Origin: a virus
Virus record (IMG/VR): IMGVR_UViG_3300049825_000626
Location: 1-26,973 of that record
Length of the DNA: 26,973 bases
Reading direction: 5' to 3' (one strand)
Part shown: piece after piece, positions 5,973-25,070 of the stretch
How positions within the stretch are numbered: the stretch's first letter is position 1
Layout: the number at the start of each line of letters is the position of its first letter
Program-made: the position numbers and the translations under genes
The notes under the pieces: generated by a model
Told to the model about the DNA's origin: nothing
Seen by the model: only the letters and a program-made list of their open reading frames with translations
The model's database searches: none

Positions 5973-6479
5973 TCACGAGCCCCACGTCAGCTTGAGGACC
6001 TTGTTGTCGTCGCCGTGGTGCGTGCGAGGGAACACGCCATACTGCGCGGTGCTCTCGTTGATCGCGTTGATGAATCCGACCATATCGAGTTTGCCCAACA
6101 GCAACTCGCTGAACGCGTCGGTGCTGTTGCGCACGCCGTTCGATCCGGCCCAGAACTCCGCCACGCGCACGGGCTTGCACTCGTGCAGCTCGTGGACGCA
6201 GGCATCGCCCGTGAGACGCTTAGTCTTCCGGCGCTGTTCCTGCGGGTCGAACTCTTCTTGGAGCATGGGCGTGCGCTCGGCCGCGTCGCGAACAACGGGC
6301 ACGATCACCATCTCGTTCGTCAGGCGTTCGAGCGGGATGAAAAACACTATTGGCTTGTCGGTTTTCTTCGCCCACGCCTTCGCGACCAACGCCTCATACA
6401 TGTCGTCCATCGCGAGGTAGAAGATGCGCTGCTGCACAGCGGATTGCGGATTGGCTCGTGCTGCTGCCGGTTGATTCAT
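5973..6479 (-). CDS. Hypothetical protein between TerL region and portal
   Basis: A 168-aa soluble protein with mixed alpha/beta composition. It includes a hydrophobic strand (KPIVFFIPLERL) and a polar middle rich in Glu, Gln, Arg and Lys. It overlaps the upstream gene by 4 nt (ATGA at 6476-6479) and ends 5 bp before the portal ATG. The location suggests a packaging or head-morphogenesis accessory protein, but no motif identifies it. Confidence 0.65.
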   Translation of the reverse strand: MNQPAAARANPQSAVQQRIFYLAMDDMYEALVAKAWAKKTDKPIVFFIPLERLTNEMVIVPVVRDAAERTPMLQEEFDPQEQRRKTKRLTGDACVHELHECKPVRVAEFWAGSNGVRNSTDAFSELLLGKLDMVGFINAINESTAQYGVFPRTHHGDDNKVLKLTWGS

Positions 6480-6742
6480 GTGCCTCGCTCCAAGAGCGCG
6501 CCTTTGATCACGCTCAGTTCTTCGGTGGTGTTGATGGTGGCGCGCTCCCAGTCATCGCGCGCCTGGCTGACTTCACGCAGCGCTTGCTCTGCACGAGCAG
6601 CGGCCGCCGTCAGCGTCACGTCTTTGCTCTCTTGCGCAGTGATGTGCGCGTACTGCTGGACCGAGCGGTAGCCGAGCCACGCGCACCAGCTCACGGCTGC
6701 GGGCCATGCGAGCGCTTGGAGCGCGAATACGAGCCAGCTCAT
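6476..6742 (-). CDS. Small membrane-anchored coiled-coil protein
   Basis: An 88-aa protein with one N-terminal membrane segment (about residues 2-24: LVFALQALAWPAAVSWCAWL) followed by an Ala/Glu/Arg-rich amphipathic helix to the C-terminus. Its layout matches inner-membrane spanin subunits or other small phage membrane proteins, but no lysis gene is adjacent. It overlaps both neighbours by 4 nt, so it is translationally coupled within the late operon. Confidence 0.6.
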   Translation of the reverse strand: MSWLVFALQALAWPAAVSWCAWLGYRSVQQYAHITAQESKDVTLTAAAARAEQALREVSQARDDWERATINTTEELSVIKGALLERGT

Positions 6743-6939
6743 TTTGCCCTCGGCTTGGCTAGAGCGTCAGAGAGCTTGTTCTGCAGTTCGGCGATCGCTT
6801 TGTGGGCACACCGTGGGCACCAGAGGTCACAGCCCGGCTCCGGCAGCTCGGCGACATAAAAGTGCCCGCACGTGTTGCATCGCGACTCTCTCACTCGGAG
6901 AGACCGCTGAATCGTTGCCTCGGTTGAGGGCGTGCTCAT
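6739..6939 (-). CDS. Small zinc-ribbon protein
   Basis: A 66-aa protein with two CxxC pairs (CNTC near residue 21, CPRC near 41), a four-cysteine zinc ribbon, then a short helix rich in Ala and Lys. ATG 6939 is preferred over a longer start at 6951 because it overlaps the TerL stop by exactly 4 nt, the spacing used throughout this operon. Role unknown; it may bind nucleic acid or a protein partner during packaging. Confidence 0.65.
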   Translation of the reverse strand: MSTPSTEATIQRSLRVRESRCNTCGHFYVAELPEPGCDLWCPRCAHKAIAELQNKLSDALAKPRAK

Positions 6940-8594
6940 GACGACAGCCAAGCCTCCAGTTCGCTGACGCCGTGCATGTTGGCAGGCTGCCAGTCTTCGG
7001 GTATGTGCATCACGTCAGGCTGATGCCTATCGAGGAACTCGTGCGGCGGACACGGGTCTACGTGCCGGATGTGCTGCACCATGCGCCACATGTAGATAAG
7101 CATCGCTACGCCGTCGAAGTGTCCGTACAGATCGGCTTCGGCACCTTCGTGGAATCGCTCCCAATCAGTGCGGCGCTCATTCCAACGGCCTGATTCAAGG
7201 TGACGAATAAGGTCCACGCACCGCGGCGCAATCTCGATCTTGTCATCTCGGAAAGCATTGCGGAGAGAGTAGAGCGCTGCTTCAGCGTCATCCTTCGCTG
7301 TCGCTGTGCACTGAATGCCCTGGTCATACGTCAGGTCTCCGATCAAGCGCGCGTCCGTGTCGCTCACTCGCAGCACAGGGTTGCGCGCGAACTCTTGCCC
7401 GCTCCACCAACACAGCGCGCTTGAGTCGTCCGGTGGCTTGAGCCCCAGTCCAGCACCTTGGTCGGGCGCTTCCTCGCCGCTCAACACACGCAGGATGCGC
7501 TGCAGTTCCTCGCGCGGGTCGAGCCCTTTGCGCCTGTCGACGTACGCGAGCTCGGCCGCGCTGCCGTACAGGTCTAGCTCGGCCGACTTGATGCGCTCTG
7601 CGACGAAGCCCGTCGTCTTGTTACGTCCACTCCAGTCACGCTCAACCACGAGCTTGGCGCGAGCAGCGTCCCAGTATCCCCATCCCACGAAGAACAGGTC
7701 GCGCATGCCGGGGTCCATAGCCGCAATCCCGCAAGCGTGAGCAGGTCGTTCAGCTGCCGTGACGTGCCGTTGAGCGTCAAACTCGGGCACCAAGACGCGA
7801 GTGCGGTCGCGGGTCTCAACGCAGTAGTACTCTCGCTCCGCGTCATCGGGATTGATTGCGCGCGCAGACTCGACAAGCTCCCGCTTAACCTCTTCGCTGA
7901 GGGTCTTGTTGTCGGCGATGGTCATGAAGACGAACGCCTTGCGCTTGATCGCGTCCGGCTCGAACACGCGCTTGAACGGGTGGTTCAGGTCCTTCGCGGC
8001 GCTGCTCTCGAAGATGGCGTCGGCTTCGGGATGGCGCGAGAACTGCGGCGCGATGATCGAGTTGTACGCGTACTCGAGCTTGTGGACGAACGCCGCTTCG
8101 GTGATGTTACAGCCGCCCTTGAGACCTGGCCCGCGCAAGCCGTCCGGATGCTCGTCGATGCCCACGAGCTTGAGCACGTAGCCGGTCTTGGGGAAGTGGT
8201 ACCCCGCGCGCATGCCCCATCGGCTCGTGAAGAAACGTGGTCGGATGTCGTCGGGAAAGCTCGCGATGATCGAGTTGATCACCGGGATGACCAGCTCTTT
8301 GAGCGATATCTCGGTGCCCGTCGCGATCAAGCACGTGCCGTCTTTGTTGAGTCCGTCCTCGACGCGCAGGCAGCTCGTGCCGTGCGTCTTGCCGACTTGG
8401 CGCCCAGCCTTGACGACGAACACGCGATGAATGCCCGAGGACAGCCCCGCGTGCAGTTCGGCCACACGTCGCGGCTGCCAGTCTCGGATCGGGTCGTAGA
8501 TGCGTAGCTGATGGTCGTCGAGCAGATGCCGGATCGAACCCGCGCGGATGAGCGCGTGCTCTTGCTCGATGCGCCTGACGTCCTCGACGATCAT
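6936..8594 (-). CDS. terL: Terminase large subunit
   Basis: A 552-aa packaging motor ATPase and nuclease. The Walker A-like loop GRQVGKT is at residues 64-70, followed by the hydrophobic core strand TCLIATGTE (87-95). A hydrophobic strand ending in acidic NITEAAF (163-169) is the probable Walker B. The C-terminal nuclease domain opens at AAMDPGMRDLFF (about 291-302), where Asp294 is the expected first metal ligand of the RNase H-like fold, with further acidic residues downstream (AYVDRRKGLD). The start overlaps the upstream gene by 4 nt. No separate small terminase is obvious next to it; the 115-aa protein at 11136-11483 is one weak candidate. Confidence 0.9.
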   Translation of the reverse strand: MIVEDVRRIEQEHALIRAGSIRHLLDDHQLRIYDPIRDWQPRRVAELHAGLSSGIHRVFVVKAGRQVGKTHGTSCLRVEDGLNKDGTCLIATGTEISLKELVIPVINSIIASFPDDIRPRFFTSRWGMRAGYHFPKTGYVLKLVGIDEHPDGLRGPGLKGGCNITEAAFVHKLEYAYNSIIAPQFSRHPEADAIFESSAAKDLNHPFKRVFEPDAIKRKAFVFMTIADNKTLSEEVKRELVESARAINPDDAEREYYCVETRDRTRVLVPEFDAQRHVTAAERPAHACGIAAMDPGMRDLFFVGWGYWDAARAKLVVERDWSGRNKTTGFVAERIKSAELDLYGSAAELAYVDRRKGLDPREELQRILRVLSGEEAPDQGAGLGLKPPDDSSALCWWSGQEFARNPVLRVSDTDARLIGDLTYDQGIQCTATAKDDAEAALYSLRNAFRDDKIEIAPRCVDLIRHLESGRWNERRTDWERFHEGAEADLYGHFDGVAMLIYMWRMVQHIRHVDPCPPHEFLDRHQPDVMHIPEDWQPANMHGVSELEAWLSS

Positions 8595-9076: not shown

Positions 9077-9276
9077 GCGTCGACCTCGACCTTGCCGAGC
9101 TTGGCGAACCACTCGTCAATCTCGGCCTGCGTGGCGAACGGCGGCCCCTTACACGCGCGACACCCGGTGCACCGGACAAACGTCTGCCGCCGCATGAGCC
9201 GCTCGAACAGCGTGGGGCTGCGGCACGCGCACTGCTGCTTATGGCAGTACCAGCACACGCTCGCCAGGTAGCTCAC
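9073..9276 (-). CDS. Cysteine-rich small protein
   Basis: A 67-aa protein with seven cysteines in a CWYC...CAC...CTGCRAC arrangement, consistent with one or two bound zinc ions, then a short helical tail. The GTG start at 9276 overlaps the upstream stop by 4 nt. It resembles the many short treble-clef or zinc-ribbon proteins of phage operons. No specific function is recognised. Confidence 0.6.
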   Translation of the reverse strand: MSYLASVCWYCHKQQCACRSPTLFERLMRRQTFVRCTGCRACKGPPFATQAEIDEWFAKLGKVEVDA

Positions 9277-9617
9277 TGCTTCGTGCCCCCGTCGCGCAGC
9301 ACCTTGTCGATCTCGGCCTTGACCGAGCCGGGGTGCTCGCGCGCTACCTCGGCGATCGCCTCGGCTTCCTCAGCCGCTTGGCGCTCAGCCTCACGCCGGT
9401 CGCGCAGGCGCTGTTGCTCCTCCTCGGCGAGCGCACCCTGCGCGCACGCTGCGATCTTCAGCGCGGTCACGGTGGTCGGGCTCGCGGCAGCAGAGGTCAG
9501 CGCTTGCTGTGCCGGCGTGCAGCCGGGCAGCATCGCCAGCGCTGTCAGCGCGCCGATCGCCACTGCGACCACGATGACGATGACGACCAACCAGTTTGCG
9601 GCTCGCACTGGTGTCAT
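9273..9617 (-). CDS. Spanin-like membrane/coiled-coil protein, copy 1
   Basis: A 114-aa protein with a strongly hydrophobic N-terminus (NWLVVIVIVVAVAIGALTAL) that ends in LPGC, so it could be either a signal anchor or a lipoprotein signal. Next comes the segment ALKIAACAQGALAEEEQ, an Arg/Glu/Ala coiled coil (about 70-100) and a conserved tail EIDKVLRDGG. The same segment and tail recur in the gene at 10244-10513, so the two are paralogues. Membrane anchor plus periplasmic coiled coil is the layout of an inner-membrane spanin. It overlaps both neighbours by 4 nt. The function is inferred from layout. Confidence 0.6.
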   Translation of the reverse strand: MTPVRAANWLVVIVIVVAVAIGALTALAMLPGCTPAQQALTSAAASPTTVTALKIAACAQGALAEEEQQRLRDRREAERQAAEEAEAIAEVAREHPGSVKAEIDKVLRDGGTKQ

Positions 9618-10002: not shown

Positions 10003-10247
10003 TCCTTTTCGCCGCAGCGCTTCTCATCGCAGGGTCCCTTGTACGCAGCGGTGATGATCGCGACCGCCCTGCGCTGCCACTCGGGCGGCAGCATGTCGAG
10101 CGTCACGAGACACGTGGACACTGACCTTGCGAAGCCCTCGGCTTCCTTGCGGAGATCGGCCTCGTCGCCCGTCACCGCGCCGTGCCCCCATCGCGCCCGA
10201 AGCGCGCGCGATGGGATGCCGAGTGCTGCGGCCTCGTCGTCCGTCAC
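9999..10247 (-). CDS. Hypothetical 82-aa protein with HTH-like N-terminus
   Basis: GTG start at 10247 (GTGA overlap). The first 20 residues (DDEAAALGIPSRALRARW) share protein and DNA sequence with the winged-helix segment of the gene at 13620-14090 (AAALGIPARAIRRAL), as if a recognition-helix fragment had been copied. The rest is a helical segment (SVSTCLVTLDMLPPEWQRR) with a Cys-containing polar tail (CDEKRCGEKD). No function is known; it lies inside the spanin-like and Acb2 cassette. Confidence 0.5.
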   Translation of the reverse strand: MTDDEAAALGIPSRALRARWGHGAVTGDEADLRKEAEGFARSVSTCLVTLDMLPPEWQRRAVAIITAAYKGPCDEKRCGEKD

Positions 10248-10513
10248 TGCTTCGCGCCCCCATCGCGCAGCACCTTCTCGATCTCGGTCCTGACCGAATC
10301 GCTCGGCTCGCTGGCTGCACGGCGGATGCGCTCGGCTTCGAGCTCGGAGGCAGCCTCGACCAACCTACTGGCCAGTGCGCGCGCCTGCTCCTGCTCGGCC
10401 AATACGCCTTGCACGCACGCGGCGATCTTCATGCCCGTGAGCGTGGACAGTCCTGCGATCGCACCAGCAAACAGGGCACCGCACACGTCGCGTAGGAACT
10501 TGGCCTCGGTCAC
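10244..10513 (-). CDS. Spanin-like membrane/coiled-coil protein, copy 2
   Basis: An 89-aa paralogue of 9273-9617. The hydrophobic segment CGALFAGAIAGLSTLTGM is followed by KIAACVQGVLAEQEQ, an Ala/Glu/Arg coiled coil and the tail EIEKVLRDGGAKQ. The GTG start at 10513 has the SD GGGAGAG identical to that of the Acb2-like gene. It appears to be the first gene of the late minus-strand operon. The layout fits an inner-membrane spanin pairing with the tiny lipoprotein at 9862-10002. At the DNA level its last ~55 bp closely match the end of copy 1. Confidence 0.55.
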   Translation of the reverse strand: MTEAKFLRDVCGALFAGAIAGLSTLTGMKIAACVQGVLAEQEQARALASRLVEAASELEAERIRRAASEPSDSVRTEIEKVLRDGGAKQ

Positions 10514-10668: not shown

Positions 10669-10812
10669 TCGGTCAGGCCTGCCGCAGAGGCGAGAAGCGA
10701 CTGCGGATTGACGATTGTCTCGTGTCCGATTCCGTCTAGTTGAACTTAGAAGACGTGTGATCTCGTGATGTTGCGCGCCGAAGTTCACGCGTCACATCAG
10801 ATTTGACCGTGT

Positions 10813-10822
10813 GACATACGTC
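10813..10822. promoter_or_regulatory. Operator-like decamer GACATACGTC
   Basis: Second family member in this interval, about 300 bp upstream of the late operon start. TTGACC at 10803-10808 lies just beside it and could be a -35 element in the plus direction. Confidence 0.4.
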
Positions 10823-11135
10823 CGGCTATGGGTCTGGGACATCGGCGCTTGGCGAGTAAACTCCGCCCCCGCCACGTCCCACGACACTGCGGGTCCTGCT
10901 CCCGGCACGAGAGTGCGCTGAGTGTCTGCCTCCCTGGATTCAGGCCCCAGGGCGTAGCGGCGCCATACGCTGCGAGATTACTACCCGCGGATGGAGGCCG
11001 AAGAAGCCGAGGGCCGCGACCCGTTGCGAGCGGTCGGTACAGGCTGGGCAGGGGGCGCTAGGGCACGATCGAATCTAGAGCTCGAGCGCTCTCAGGTTTG
11101 GTCGGCGCATGTTCGCCGCCGGCTTCGCGGCGCGA

Positions 11136-11483
11136 CTACCGCCCGCGGCGCTCGTTCTGCTTCTGGATTCGGACGGACTCAGACAGAGCTGCGAGGTCGG
11201 TCACGCTGGCGAGCACAGTCGGCTTCTCCGGGGCGGGCTGGCTGACCTTGCCCTCGGTCAGCATCTGCATGACGTCCCGAGCGGCCGATAGTGCGGCGCC
11301 CACGTTGCGCTGCTTCGAGCCGGGCTTCATCGCTGCCTCGTACGCGTCCATGGCGAGCGGCGCCATCGCCTGCATGCGTCGAGTCAGGTAGGCGCGGGTG
11401 TCAGCAAGCGACTCGCCCCCCGACCCCCCAGGCTTCTCGGACGCATCCCCGTCCGCTGCGCCTTCGCTCAGTACGTCAGTCAT
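11136..11483 (-). CDS. Hypothetical protein, possible small terminase-like
   Basis: A 115-aa protein. An acidic Gly/Ser/Glu N-terminus (1-25) is followed by a helical middle (about 27-75) with Ala-rich repeats (APLAMDAYEAAMK, ALSAARDVMQML) and a basic, Gln-rich C-terminus (VRIQKQNERRGR). Small terminases often carry a comparable Ala-rich helical segment, but the expected N-terminal HTH is not visible, so this is only a suggestion. It is separated from TerL by about 2.5 kb. Start ATG 11483; the lipoprotein gene on the other strand begins only 8-23 bp away. Confidence 0.5.
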   Translation of the reverse strand: MTDVLSEGAADGDASEKPGGSGGESLADTRAYLTRRMQAMAPLAMDAYEAAMKPGSKQRNVGAALSAARDVMQMLTEGKVSQPAPEKPTVLASVTDLAALSESVRIQKQNERRGR

Positions 11484-13039: not shown

Positions 13040-13050
13040 GGGTTGTTTCT

Positions 13051-13619: not shown

Positions 13620-14090
13620 TCAAGACGTTTCTGGGAAAGTCATCGCCCACCGCGCGAGTCGCTCTGACTCGCGGGAAGTGAACGGCCGGTGTCTGTCTTC
13701 GAGCGTCTGCTTGTTGGTCGGGTAGCGCTCGCGGCCCGCGAACAAGAGCATGTCCTGCGCCGCTTCGCCGCCTGCGATCTGCCCGCGCTTCTGCCCTGCT
13801 GAGCAGGGGCGCGCCGCCGTCAGCTGCCGTTGCTGGACGCCTACCAGCGGGATCGTGGTCACGGACTCCCAGAGGTGCTCACGGCCCCAGTACACGTTTG
13901 GCGTGTTGGTCAGCCGCGTGCGTCTGTAGTCGCACGCGGCTGTGACGGCCTTGGCTTCCAGCGCTCGCCGAATCGCGCGCGCTGGGATGCCGAGTGCTGC
14001 GGCGATCTGTGACGCGGTCAGCGGCGTCTCGCTCTTGCGCAGCAGCCTGATTACGCGGTGAGTGGTCGGTGTCAGCGAATCGTCAGTCAC
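13620..14090 (-). CDS. Winged-helix DNA-binding protein
   Basis: A 156-aa protein. GTG 14090 is chosen because AGGAG lies 6 nt upstream inside a start-associated sequence; the longer frame upstream is a shadow of the preceding zinc-ribbon frame. Residues about 8-50 form an HTH with a clear recognition segment (LTASQIAAALGIPARAIRRA), then a probable wing (RLTNTPNVYWG). The remainder is Gln/Arg-rich and unassigned. This is a likely transcription or replication regulator. The recognition segment is echoed in the 82-aa protein at 9999-10247. Confidence 0.65.
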   Translation of the reverse strand: MTDDSLTPTTHRVIRLLRKSETPLTASQIAAALGIPARAIRRALEAKAVTAACDYRRTRLTNTPNVYWGREHLWESVTTIPLVGVQQRQLTAARPCSAGQKRGQIAGGEAAQDMLLFAGRERYPTNKQTLEDRHRPFTSRESERLARWAMTFPETS

Positions 14091-14277
14091 ATCTATCTCC
14101 TGGTTGATTGGCTTCGAACAGCCGCCGATGGCGGCACGTGCGGCATAGCCACTGCGTGCCGTCATCGGCGAGCGTGGTTACTGCGTGGCACCGCTCGCAG
14201 CGTCCTCGTTCTCCGAGTCCTGGCCCGCGCCACCGTTGAGGTAAGCGGCCAGCTGGTTCTTCGCTGGCCGCCCTGGT
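14083..14277 (-). CDS. -1 frame zinc-ribbon extension of 14178-14405
   Basis: The -1 frame from 14277 to the stop at 14083 encodes 64 codons, including a complete zinc ribbon: CERC, a 13-residue loop, then CRTC and a basic RHRR. There is no ATG, GTG or TTG in this frame between the heptamer and the first CxxC; the nearest GTG (14393) would start inside the first codons of the other gene. It is best read as the C-terminus of a 107-aa frameshift product: 43 residues of the 14178-14405 protein plus this extension. Its last codons include the start-associated sequence of the next gene. Confidence 0.6.
   Translation of the reverse strand, partial: TRAASEEPAGRLPQRWRGPGLGERGRCERCHAVTTLADDGTQWLCRTCRHRRLFEANQPGDRCD
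14099..14109 (-). repeat. Start-associated sequence AATCAACCAGG
   Basis: Consensus copy preceding the winged-helix gene at 14090; it lies within the end of the zinc-ribbon extension frame. Confidence 0.6.
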
Positions 14278-14405
14278 TTTCCCGATGGTTGCGCCATCCC
14301 CATCAGCTCGGCCATGTCCTGCATGCGCTGTGCTGCTTCGGCGCGCCCTGCGGCAAGCTCCGACTTCAACTCGGCGTGCGTCATCGTTGCCCACGTCTTG
14401 CTCAT
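14178..14405 (-). CDS. Small basic protein with KPGRPAK motif; frameshift donor
   Basis: A 75-aa protein from ATG 14405 (ATGA overlap). A helical, Ala/Glu/Met-rich N-terminal part (about 8-37) is followed by SGKPGRPAKNQ, which contains an AT-hook-like GRP core, and an acidic tail (DSENEDAASGATQ). The sequence GGGAAAA lies in frame at codons 42-43 and is followed by a 9-bp stem. A fraction of ribosomes may therefore switch to -1 and replace the acidic tail with a zinc ribbon. Possible small DNA-binding or regulatory protein made in two forms. Confidence 0.6.
   Translation of the reverse strand: MSKTWATMTHAELKSELAAGRAEAAQRMQDMAELMGMAQPSGKPGRPAKNQLAAYLNGGAGQDSENEDAASGATQ
14245..14283 (-). promoter_or_regulatory. 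Predicted -1 ribosomal frameshift signal
   Basis: The minus-strand heptamer G GGA AAA (14283-14277) is in the zero frame of the 14405 gene and fits X XXY YYZ. It is followed by a 5-nt spacer (CCAGG, 14276-14272) and a perfect 9-bp stem (GCGGCCAGC 14271-14263 with GCTGGCCGC 14253-14245) with a 9-nt loop. Heptamer type, spacing and stem strength are as in known phage frameshift sites. Confidence 0.65.
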
Positions 14406-14527
14406 GACAACATCCGCCAGCGAATGAAGAAGTAGGGCGCGACGACAATGATCGCGGGCGGAAACAGCGCGCAGAGCATCCCGAGCCCCACACCGACCGC
14501 GACGTTGCACACGTCGACGAAACTCAC
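14402..14527 (-). CDS. Tiny membrane protein (41 aa)
   Basis: Starts at GTG 14527 (GTGA overlap) and ends at TGA 14402, overlapping the next ATG by 4 nt. Nearly the whole chain is hydrophobic (VAVGVGLGMLCALF, AIIVVAPYFF) with a basic RWR near the end, consistent with one or two short membrane helices. Unknown role. Confidence 0.5.
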   Translation of the reverse strand: MSFVDVCNVAVGVGLGMLCALFPPAIIVVAPYFFIRWRMLS

Positions 14528-14598
14528 GGCGTCACCGCCGCGTAGAACGCGCACGTCAGCGCGCATGCCGCCATCAGCGGCAACATAAACTTAGTCAT
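14524..14598 (-). CDS. Tiny hydrophobic peptide (24 aa)
   Basis: Starts at ATG 14598 with SD GGGAG 7 nt upstream, supplied by a start-associated sequence, and ends in GTGA overlap with the next tiny gene. The sequence is hydrophobic (MLPLMAACALTCAFYAAV). The strong start signals and 4-nt overlap argue for translation; it may be a leader peptide that couples the next genes. Confidence 0.45.
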   Translation of the reverse strand: MTKFMLPLMAACALTCAFYAAVTP

Positions 14599-17627: not shown

Positions 17628-17881
17628 CGGGTCCCCCTGCACTTGCATGGCAGCACCGACCATGTCTCAGCGCCGGTACTCGTACGGTCCACAAGCTGCT
17701 GCAGCCGCGGTTGGTCGCAGCGAACGCAGTCGACTTGCCCGCACAGGCTGTGCTCGCGCGTGTCGACGTCGCCGATCTCGACGTGCGGCGAGCGCAGCAC
17801 CGTTGTGCGTGGCAGCGCCGGGCGCAACGTCTTCGGCCGCGCGTCGTGGAGCACCTCGTGCCACTGTTCGAGCGCGCTCAT
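17624..17881 (-). CDS. Small Cys-rich hypothetical protein
   Basis: An 85-aa protein from ATG 17881 (ATGA overlap with the helicase stop). The C-terminal half has CGQVDCVRC and CKC, a likely zinc site; the N-terminus is polar with few features. Coupled to the helicase and the 44-aa zinc ribbon. Confidence 0.55.
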   Translation of the reverse strand: MSALEQWHEVLHDARPKTLRPALPRTTVLRSPHVEIGDVDTREHSLCGQVDCVRCDQPRLQQLVDRTSTGAETWSVLPCKCRGTR

Positions 17882-19158
17882 GTCCAGCCCAACTCGCTGC
17901 TAAAAGTGGTCGTCGGTGCGTCGAAGCGCATGCGCACGATGCCGGTCTGCCCCTTGCGGTTCTTCAAGAACACAGCCTCGGCTGCGTCCTTGTCGGCGTT
18001 CTGGTCGTGCACGCACTCGCGGTGCAGGCCAATGATGCGGTCGGCGTCACGCTCGATCTGCCCGCTCTGCGCGATGTCGGACATCACGGGGCGCTTGTCG
18101 CCGCGCTTGTCGCTGTCGCGGTTGGACTGCGAGAGCACGACGAACGGGATATCCAGCTCGCGGGACAGGAGCTTGAGCGCCGTCGCGATGTCGCCGATCT
18201 CTTCGAAGCGCGACTGGTAGCGCTTCCGCATGCGAATCAGCTGCAGGTAGTCCACCACGACCATGTCGAGTTGCGACTTGCGGCGCATCGCTCGGCACGC
18301 GTTGGCGAGGTCCTCGAGCACGAGCGCCGAGCAGTCGAAGATGTAGAGCGGGATGTCCGACAGCAGCCCAGCACGGTTGATCACATGCGTCGCGGTGTCG
18401 GCGCTGAGCTGGCGCGCGAACGCCTGCACCGGAACCCGTGCATCCTGGCTGAGCACGCTCACAGCCACGTCCAACGCGCTCATCTCGTAGCTGAACACCG
18501 CCGTGTGCAGCCCGGCGACCGCGTTGCTGCGTGCGACCTGCAGCGCAAACGACGTCTTGCCCATGCCGGGGCGCGCCAGGATGATCGCGAGCTCGCCGGA
18601 CGCGAACCCGCGCCAAGGCAGCGCCTTGTCGACAGGACCGATCCCGCTCGGGGCCACGATGCGTGGGGTTACCGGGCGGGCCGCCATCAGCTCGTCGATC
18701 GCCGGCTGGAGCGCCTCCCCCAGCGTCCGATGCGCCAGCTTCTGCCGCCTGCCTCCCAGGGCGGCTGTGAGCCTCTCTGAGGCGCGCTGCAAAAACTCGC
18801 CTGGGTCGGCCGACGCCGTTGCGTCCAGGCCCCAGGCGCCAACGTCGAGGCAAGCGCGGCCCAGGGTGCGAGCTTCGCCGAGCAGACGCAGCCGCTCGAG
18901 CGCGTCGCTGGCGAGGAAGGCTGCCACGAGGGTGTCACCCCGAGCAGCGCTCGCGAGCGTCGCCATGTCGAAGCTCTGCCCCGCCTGCCGGTGCAGACGC
19001 GTGACCGCCTCGAACACGCGTCGGGCGCCCTCCGCGTAGAAGTCCTCGGGCAGTAGCTCGTCGACGAGTAGCTGCCTGTGCTCGTCCATGTGCAGCGCGA
19101 GCGCGAGCACCTTGGTCTCGAGTCTGTGGTCGTGTGGCATTCCCGTTCGTTCGGTCAT
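17878..19158 (-). CDS. dnaB: DnaB-like replicative helicase
   Basis: A 426-aa protein. The N-terminal DnaB domain (about 10-130) is followed by a linker and the RecA-fold motor. Walker A is ARPGMGKT at 195-202, Walker B DMVVVDYLQLI at 298-308, and the following SQSNRDSDKRGDKRP with DIAQSGQIERDADRI corresponds to the DnaB H4/arginine-finger region. It is the phage's hexameric 5'-3' helicase. ATG 19158 lies behind a consensus start-associated sequence with SD AGGGA. The initiator gene lies immediately upstream, as in self-sufficient replication modules. Confidence 0.9.
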   Translation of the reverse strand: MTERTGMPHDHRLETKVLALALHMDEHRQLLVDELLPEDFYAEGARRVFEAVTRLHRQAGQSFDMATLASAARGDTLVAAFLASDALERLRLLGEARTLGRACLDVGAWGLDATASADPGEFLQRASERLTAALGGRRQKLAHRTLGEALQPAIDELMAARPVTPRIVAPSGIGPVDKALPWRGFASGELAIILARPGMGKTSFALQVARSNAVAGLHTAVFSYEMSALDVAVSVLSQDARVPVQAFARQLSADTATHVINRAGLLSDIPLYIFDCSALVLEDLANACRAMRRKSQLDMVVVDYLQLIRMRKRYQSRFEEIGDIATALKLLSRELDIPFVVLSQSNRDSDKRGDKRPVMSDIAQSGQIERDADRIIGLHRECVHDQNADKDAAEAVFLKNRKGQTGIVRMRFDAPTTTFSSELGWT

Positions 19159-24819: not shown

Positions 24820-25070
24820 TCGCGTGCAAGAGCTGCGGGGCCGAGATCGTTTGGTGTGTGACCGAGCAAGGGAAGCGCATGCCGATCGACGCCAAACCAA
24901 GCGACCAGGGGAACGTGTGCATGTTCGAGTGCCCCGAGACCGGCACAGACATGTGCCGAGTCATCTCGAGGGATGAGCTTGCGACGTGGTCAGCTGACGA
25001 AGACGGCCAGATGTACACGAGCCACTTCGCCACATGCCCGAACGCCAAGCGGCACCGGAAGGGCAAATGA
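24816..25070 (+). CDS. Phage zinc-ribbon protein
   Basis: An 84-aa protein from ATG 24816 (ATGA overlap). CKSCGAEIVW, then GKRMPIDAKP, GN and a distal HFATCPNA form the well-known small phage zinc protein pattern (C-x2-C, then a C/H pair). Function is not established. It overlaps the coiled-coil gene by 4 nt. Confidence 0.7.
   Translation: MIACKSCGAEIVWCVTEQGKRMPIDAKPSDQGNVCMFECPETGTDMCRVISRDELATWSADEDGQMYTSHFATCPNAKRHRKGK

Follow-up and report, generated by a model that had tools for sequence, protein, structure and literature searches.

Does a small phage gene of 75 codons direct the synthesis of a second, longer product by -1 ribosomal frameshifting, and does that product gain a zinc ribbon encoded in the overlapping frame? 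The question is posed by the minus strand of a viral DNA stretch of 26,973 nucleotides (IMG/VR record IMGVR_UViG_3300049825_000626), called the window below. A sequence-only reading of this DNA had proposed a programmed frameshift, and the proposal is supported by conservation in a related phage and by a switch of coding constraint at the predicted slip site. We consider it highly probable that programmed -1 ribosomal frameshifting at G GGA AAA yields a zinc-ribbon fusion, which is so far a predicted protein. The features by which such sites are judged are found together here, namely, an in-phase heptamer, a stable structure downstream, inside the usual spacing of about 5-9 nt, and a start-less, constrained -1 frame that stays open past the zero-frame stop.

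The small gene and its predicted slip site

The frame-0 ORF occupies positions 14178..14405 of the minus strand (ATG at 14405, TAA at 14180-14178), and its 75-aa product has no PHROG or Pfam match up to E = 1. In the window, the gene is placed between terminase (6939-8594) and replicative helicase (17881-19158) and has small genes as neighbours; no tail genes were identified there to set against the usual place of a tail chaperone gene, which is between those for the major tail protein and the tape measure. The slippery heptamer GGGAAAA (14277..14283, minus strand) is followed by a 5-nt spacer, CCAGG (14272..14276, minus strand), and then by a putative stimulatory hairpin. Coordinates and phase were confirmed on re-examination, as were the 5-nt spacing and the perfect 9-bp stem that the sequence-only reading had described.

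GGGAAAA is the sole in-phase X XXY YYZ heptamer in the 75-aa ORF, and the same is true of the homologous ORF in the related phage G001 (see below). The ten other window genes that were scanned, 4039 codons long, have four in-phase heptamers of this type, none of them GGGAAAA. Regardless of phase, there are five copies of GGGAAAA in the window, every one on the minus strand, and two of the others (16708 and 19163) overlap a recurrent ribosome-binding element. The slip site is built of rare codons, common to the window and G001 (share within the codon family: GGA 12%, AAA 17%, CCA 12%, GGG 14%; product 0.00035). For slips of this kind in E. coli, AAG in the A site generally works better than AAA, which counts against the site seen here. 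Upstream of the heptamer, both phages have TGGGGATGG (14294..14302, minus strand), which is weakly complementary to the anti-Shine-Dalgarno sequence (about -7 kcal/mol) and ends 10 nt before the heptamer in the window and 13 nt before it in G001. It is a possible 5' stimulator of the Shine-Dalgarno type, confounded with conserved coding of x-G-M.

The putative zinc ribbon in the -1 frame

Translation of the -1 frame from the heptamer gives TRAASEEPAGRLPQRWRGPGLGERGRCERCHAVTTLADDGTQWLCRTCRHRRLFEANQPGDRCD. The extension, TRAASEEPAGRLPQRWRGPG...CERC...WLCRTCRHRRLFEANQPGDRCD*, spans 14083..14277 of the minus strand and contains, as had been claimed from the letters alone, a complete CxxC...CxxC ribbon ahead of its stop codon at 14085..14083. 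The zinc-ribbon core (14134..14199, minus strand; CERC...WLCRTC) has the form CX2C-X14-CX2C; four cysteines and the WLCR.CRH signature are common to G001, with both CxxC knuckles and the X14 spacing identical. The best Pfam match of the ribbon is Zn_Ribbon_YjdM, with an E-value of 0.0014 that falls below the curated cut-off. The AlphaFold model has three short strands with pLDDT of about 70 in the core only, and a Foldseek search with this low-confidence model returned a best match with E of 1.1. The weak Pfam match and the low-confidence model agree with a zinc ribbon and are no proof of one. The 3' end of the -1 frame overlaps AATCAACCAGGAGA (14096..14109, minus strand), the recurrent ribosome-binding element of the next gene.

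The predicted fusion is 107 amino acids long, with residues 1-43 taken from frame 0 and 64 residues from the -1 frame. The two products would be the same over residues 1-43, and the KPGRPAK segment beyond its first K belongs to the 75-aa form only. Because the shift occurs at that first K, the fusion lacks this segment; the earlier proposal, that a zinc finger is appended to a KPGRPAK-type basic protein, thus stands as to the ribbon being part of the fusion, and has to be amended in that the ribbon replaces the KPGRPAK tail. Reading KPGRPAK as an AT-hook was considered and dropped: G001 has KPGRKAA, the segment is not part of the fusion, and the distal portion of the frame-0 tail shows no constraint of its own.

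Related phages

The most informative relative, G001 (IMGVR_UViG_3300020154_000007, 45,267 b), was reached via the helicase of the window. Gene order is common to the two phages over most of the window, and their proteins have mostly diverged (amino acid identity of 36% for terminase, 28% for capsid, 25% for portal and 78% for helicase). The G001 homologue is a 78-aa ORF, 51% identical to the 75-aa ORF over the alignment and located a few kb downstream of the helicase, across the record ends. Its GGGAAAA agrees with that of the window in phase and codon position and lies inside the common block CGGGAAAACCAGGGCG, and its -1 frame, GKTRAQGGESAGRAALTRWKGPGESGLGACERCRGIAALTDTGEHWLCRPCRHQLLF..., is 52% identical to that of the window downstream of the heptamer and keeps all four cysteines. 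When the frames are compared from stop to stop, the -1 frames match with E of 3e-18, against 2e-10 for frame 0, and the blastn similarity between the two DNAs spans 14284 to 14096, beginning at the heptamer and ending at the end of the ribbon.

Two more phages were found by terminase search: G002 (IMGVR_UViG_3300015263_000928; terminase 52%) and G003 (IMGVR_UViG_3300020154_000001; terminase 35%). At the matching place, G002 has a 62-aa ORF which shares with the small gene the N-terminus only (W..M[ST]H.EL; INWGAMSHSELVRELTRGLAERD), and neither the heptamer nor the ribbon was found in it. No match to the 75-aa gene was found in G003. The loss of the heptamer in a homologue had been named beforehand as evidence that would tell against the frameshift; since G002 is without both heptamer and ribbon, it does not refute it. 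Among the phages examined, which are few, heptamer and ribbon are present or absent together, and the frameshift site is kept in 1/1 relatives that have both protein parts (G001).

Wider searches added no relatives. A scan of 2.9 million viral contigs for the heptamer-plus-ribbon pattern retrieved the G001 contig only; scans of IMG/VR and GTDB genomes gave one independent relative with the ribbon, again G001, and none in GTDB genomes; and 50,697 phage records, searched at both the protein and the DNA level, yielded nothing useful. A looser slip-plus-ribbon pattern, used as a control, matched four further contigs, in each of which the heptamer was out of phase or the protein was no ribbon. Matches to a zinc-ribbon DNA pattern in IMG/VR were rejected, being chance occurrences or Cys4 proteins of other kinds that begin at ordinary start codons. 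The comparative support for the predicted frameshift comes, then, from one independent relative.

The downstream hairpin

The putative hairpin of the window (14245..14271, minus strand) consists of the arms GCGGCCAGC and GCTGGCCGC, which form a perfect 9-bp stem, and a 9-nt loop, GAAGAACCA. Its free energy is -20.5 kcal/mol (-20.5 to -21 kcal/mol for the minimum free energy), with z = -4.9 relative to shuffled sequences, and only 0.03% of 3781 coding segments fold as stably as the 30-nt segment that starts 5 nt past the heptamer. G001 has a different hairpin, which starts at the same 5-nt spacing and, at -15.7 kcal/mol, belongs to the lowest 0.5% of its ORF segments; relative to its own shuffles, in what is a very GC-rich region, it is no better than expected (z of +0.3 and -0.6). 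Base for base, the 9-bp stem of the window is not kept, and no compensatory pairs were seen between the two hairpins, covariation being uninformative with two sequences. The expectation that homologues would conserve the arrangement was borne out in G001 for the heptamer, the -1 frame ribbon and the position of the hairpin, and was not for the exact stem. We regard the support that the hairpin gives to the frameshift as good in the window and moderate in G001.

Does the ribbon have a start of its own?

The -1 frame of G001 has no ATG, GTG or TTG anywhere between stops, and that of the window has none over the stretch that begins 111 nt before the heptamer and ends at the stop, in line with the initial remark that the ribbon has no start nearby. 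G001 has a single CTG 114 nt before the heptamer, in a part of the -1 frame that is not conserved; the start candidates that come after it, ATA and CTG, are inside the ribbon, past the first CxxC. In the window, two other start candidates remain: an ATC that sits one codon ahead of the heptamer, and a CTG within the ribbon. The frame-0 stop sits inside the ribbon coding sequence, so that ribosomes re-initiating past it would miss the first CxxC. Entry from frame 0 is thus the only ordinary route to the ribbon in G001.

It is nonetheless conceivable that the ribbon is a separate overlapping gene that begins at an unusual start of its own, without any frameshift. The ATC of the window directly precedes GGG, and the conserved block GGGAAAACCAGGGCG includes AACCAGGG, which forms the core of the recurrent element AAYCAACCAGGRGA. 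An internal start was weighed for that reason, and no start codon follows AACCAGGG in the -1 frame of either phage. G001 does not have the ATC, and there is no NTG or ATH in frame between its heptamer and the first CxxC. An own start, moreover, needs neither an in-phase heptamer nor a hairpin exactly there, and would not need the frame-0 constraint to end at the heptamer, as it seems to do (see below). We find a separate gene very improbable and retain the frameshift as the preferred reading.

Which frame is constrained

Classical dN/dS did not resolve the frames (0.36/0.63 for the ribbon); it is too weak for stretches of 27-33 codons, and a randomisation test was therefore used, in which the substitutions that separate the window from G001 were kept in number and type, their positions were redistributed 20,000 times, and the frames were scored. 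Before the heptamer (W5-M37), frame 0 is preserved beyond chance (p=0.0002), with p=0.55 for the -1 frame and 0.78 for the remaining one. After the heptamer (RWRGPG to NQ), none of the 20,000 randomisations equals the -1 frame, with p=0.42 for frame 0 and p=0.56 for the +1 frame. In the second block of the overlap that precedes the frame-0 stop, the result favours the -1 frame only (0/20,000 versus 0.53). Judging from these substitutions, protein-level constraint acts on frame 0 up to the heptamer and on frame -1 beyond it. Past this point, the frame-0 tail by itself shows little constraint, and this suggests the 107-aa fusion as the selected product.

The same result bears on the possibility that ribosomes do shift, and that shifting has a regulatory purpose, either as a ribosome sink or by setting the amount of the 75-aa protein, with the ribbon being incidental. 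Frameshifts can indeed serve regulation (PMC5009743), and the G002 homologue is only 62 aa long and has no ribbon; but past the heptamer the constraint falls on the -1 frame and not on the frame-0 tail, so that we hold an incidental ribbon to be very improbable. An assembly or sequencing indel, the true genes being plain in-frame fusions (with, e.g., five A in both), would look identical if one base were missing from the A run, and is hardly credible: two diverged contigs agree in the length and the place of the run, which would take two independent errors, and both contigs contain A/T runs of 5-7. A frameshift that would yield the fusion remains our favoured explanation.

Proposed mechanism

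In the mechanism that we propose, ribosomes would make residues 1-43 of a small accessory protein of the phage and would be paused by the hairpin 5 nt downstream, GGA then occupying the P site and AAA the A site. In a fraction of them, the Gly and Lys tRNAs would slip in tandem and re-pair on GGG AAA; these ribosomes would continue in the -1 frame and produce the 107-aa protein with a C-terminal zinc ribbon. Those that do not slip would finish the 75-aa protein with its short KPGRPAK-containing tail. Slippage, its efficiency, and the binding of zinc by the four cysteines are all inferred from sequence, and the ribbon protein may play its role by binding nucleic acid or a (host) protein. A broader scheme can be imagined, in which a phage regulator has its C-terminus, basic tail or zinc ribbon, chosen by -1 frameshifting, with the frameshifted form as the chief functional protein and possible feedback of the ribbon protein or of zinc on the shift; this scheme we consider improbable.

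Other features of the window

The recurrent element AAYCAACCAGGRGA occurs nine times when up to 2 mismatches are allowed (0.3 expected), at 13048, 13479, 14096, 14606, 16710 and 19165 on the minus strand and at 24899, 25544 and 25583 on the plus strand. Several copies sit just before start codons, and the element is probably a common extended ribosome-binding or regulatory signal. A copy also precedes a conserved 24-aa hydrophobic ORF, MTKFMLPLMAACALTCAFYAAVTP (MTRYMLPLMAACALVCAFYAGAVP in G001), at window positions 14524-14598 (minus strand) and L023 positions 6436-6510 (minus strand), with 85% nucleotide identity.

Positions 10797-11133 of the window are 85% identical in nucleotides to G001 positions 39313-39651, far above the neighbouring genes. 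The indels there are not multiples of three, and no common ORF with a start is open in both phages; the segment has no match in Rfam and none in the phage records, and is possibly a non-coding or packaging element. It adjoins a gene at 11136-11483 (minus strand), whose product may, at a guess, be a small terminase subunit. The gene at 17639-17881 seems to be present twice in G001, matching 679-918 and 45060-45266, near both record ends, at about 74% each. The genes at 9273-9617 and 10244-10513 (minus strand) encode similar small proteins, ending in VLRDGGTKQ and VLRDGGAKQ, and match the same G001 region; the pair is apparently a duplication.

Comparison with known recoding systems

The closest parallels to the slip site are found in phage tail genes. 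In Microbacterium phage Bush, GGGAAAA is annotated as the slip site of the tail-chaperone gene (PMC11749239), and G_GGA_AAG, the lambda gpG/gpGT site, is highly shift-prone in E. coli (PMC5009743). Like the gene discussed here, lambda gpG/gpGT and the Bush gene have a -1 shift at G_GGA_AAR in a small phage ORF, and an overlapping -1 frame that gives a longer protein with a different C-terminus (PMC5009743; PMC11749239). Unlike the tail chaperones, our gene is not recognisable as one, lies between terminase and helicase, and would gain a zinc ribbon. Frameshifting in phages has been described for tail chaperones, for Ig-like extensions of capsid proteins and for T7 gene 10 (PMC5009743), and in a survey of annotated phage frameshift genes, 2397/2476 were tail chaperones and 79/2476 hypotheticals (PMC10885494). 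No paper on a phage frameshift that supplies a zinc ribbon was found in the open-access literature.

In the coat-protein Ig-like extensions of T3 and A2 and in T7 gene 10A/10B, as is predicted here, frameshifting adds a whole domain to a fraction of the protein (PMC5009743). The proteins of T3, A2 and T7 are structural, with surface domains, whereas here a Cys4 domain would be placed on a small protein. The shift in E. coli copA gives a shortened product; the one proposed here would instead supply a metal-binding domain. What the two have in common is a metal-related product of frameshifting, in copA a putative copper chaperone from a transporter gene (PMC5009743). Phage Mu Com and the YjdM/PhnA-type zinc ribbons resemble the -1 frame product in being small Cys4 domains, and the -1 frame product has no significant membership in either group. 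Com and the YjdM/PhnA-type ribbons are expressed from ordinary start codons. Com is described as a zinc-finger protein of the phage that activates translation (PMC6483171).

Of the phage frameshifts that have been annotated, nearly all belong to genes for tail chaperones or capsid proteins, partly since annotators look there. A standard mechanism would here be used to supply a zinc ribbon in a small gene that is not recognisable as one for tail or capsid, and this use is, as far as we could find, new. A comparatively supported case of a small accessory gene in which the shift would decide on the ribbon suggests that recoding shapes other phage proteins too, and that domains such as this one escape ordinary gene calling; the ribbon of G001 would be listed by no caller that requires a start codon.
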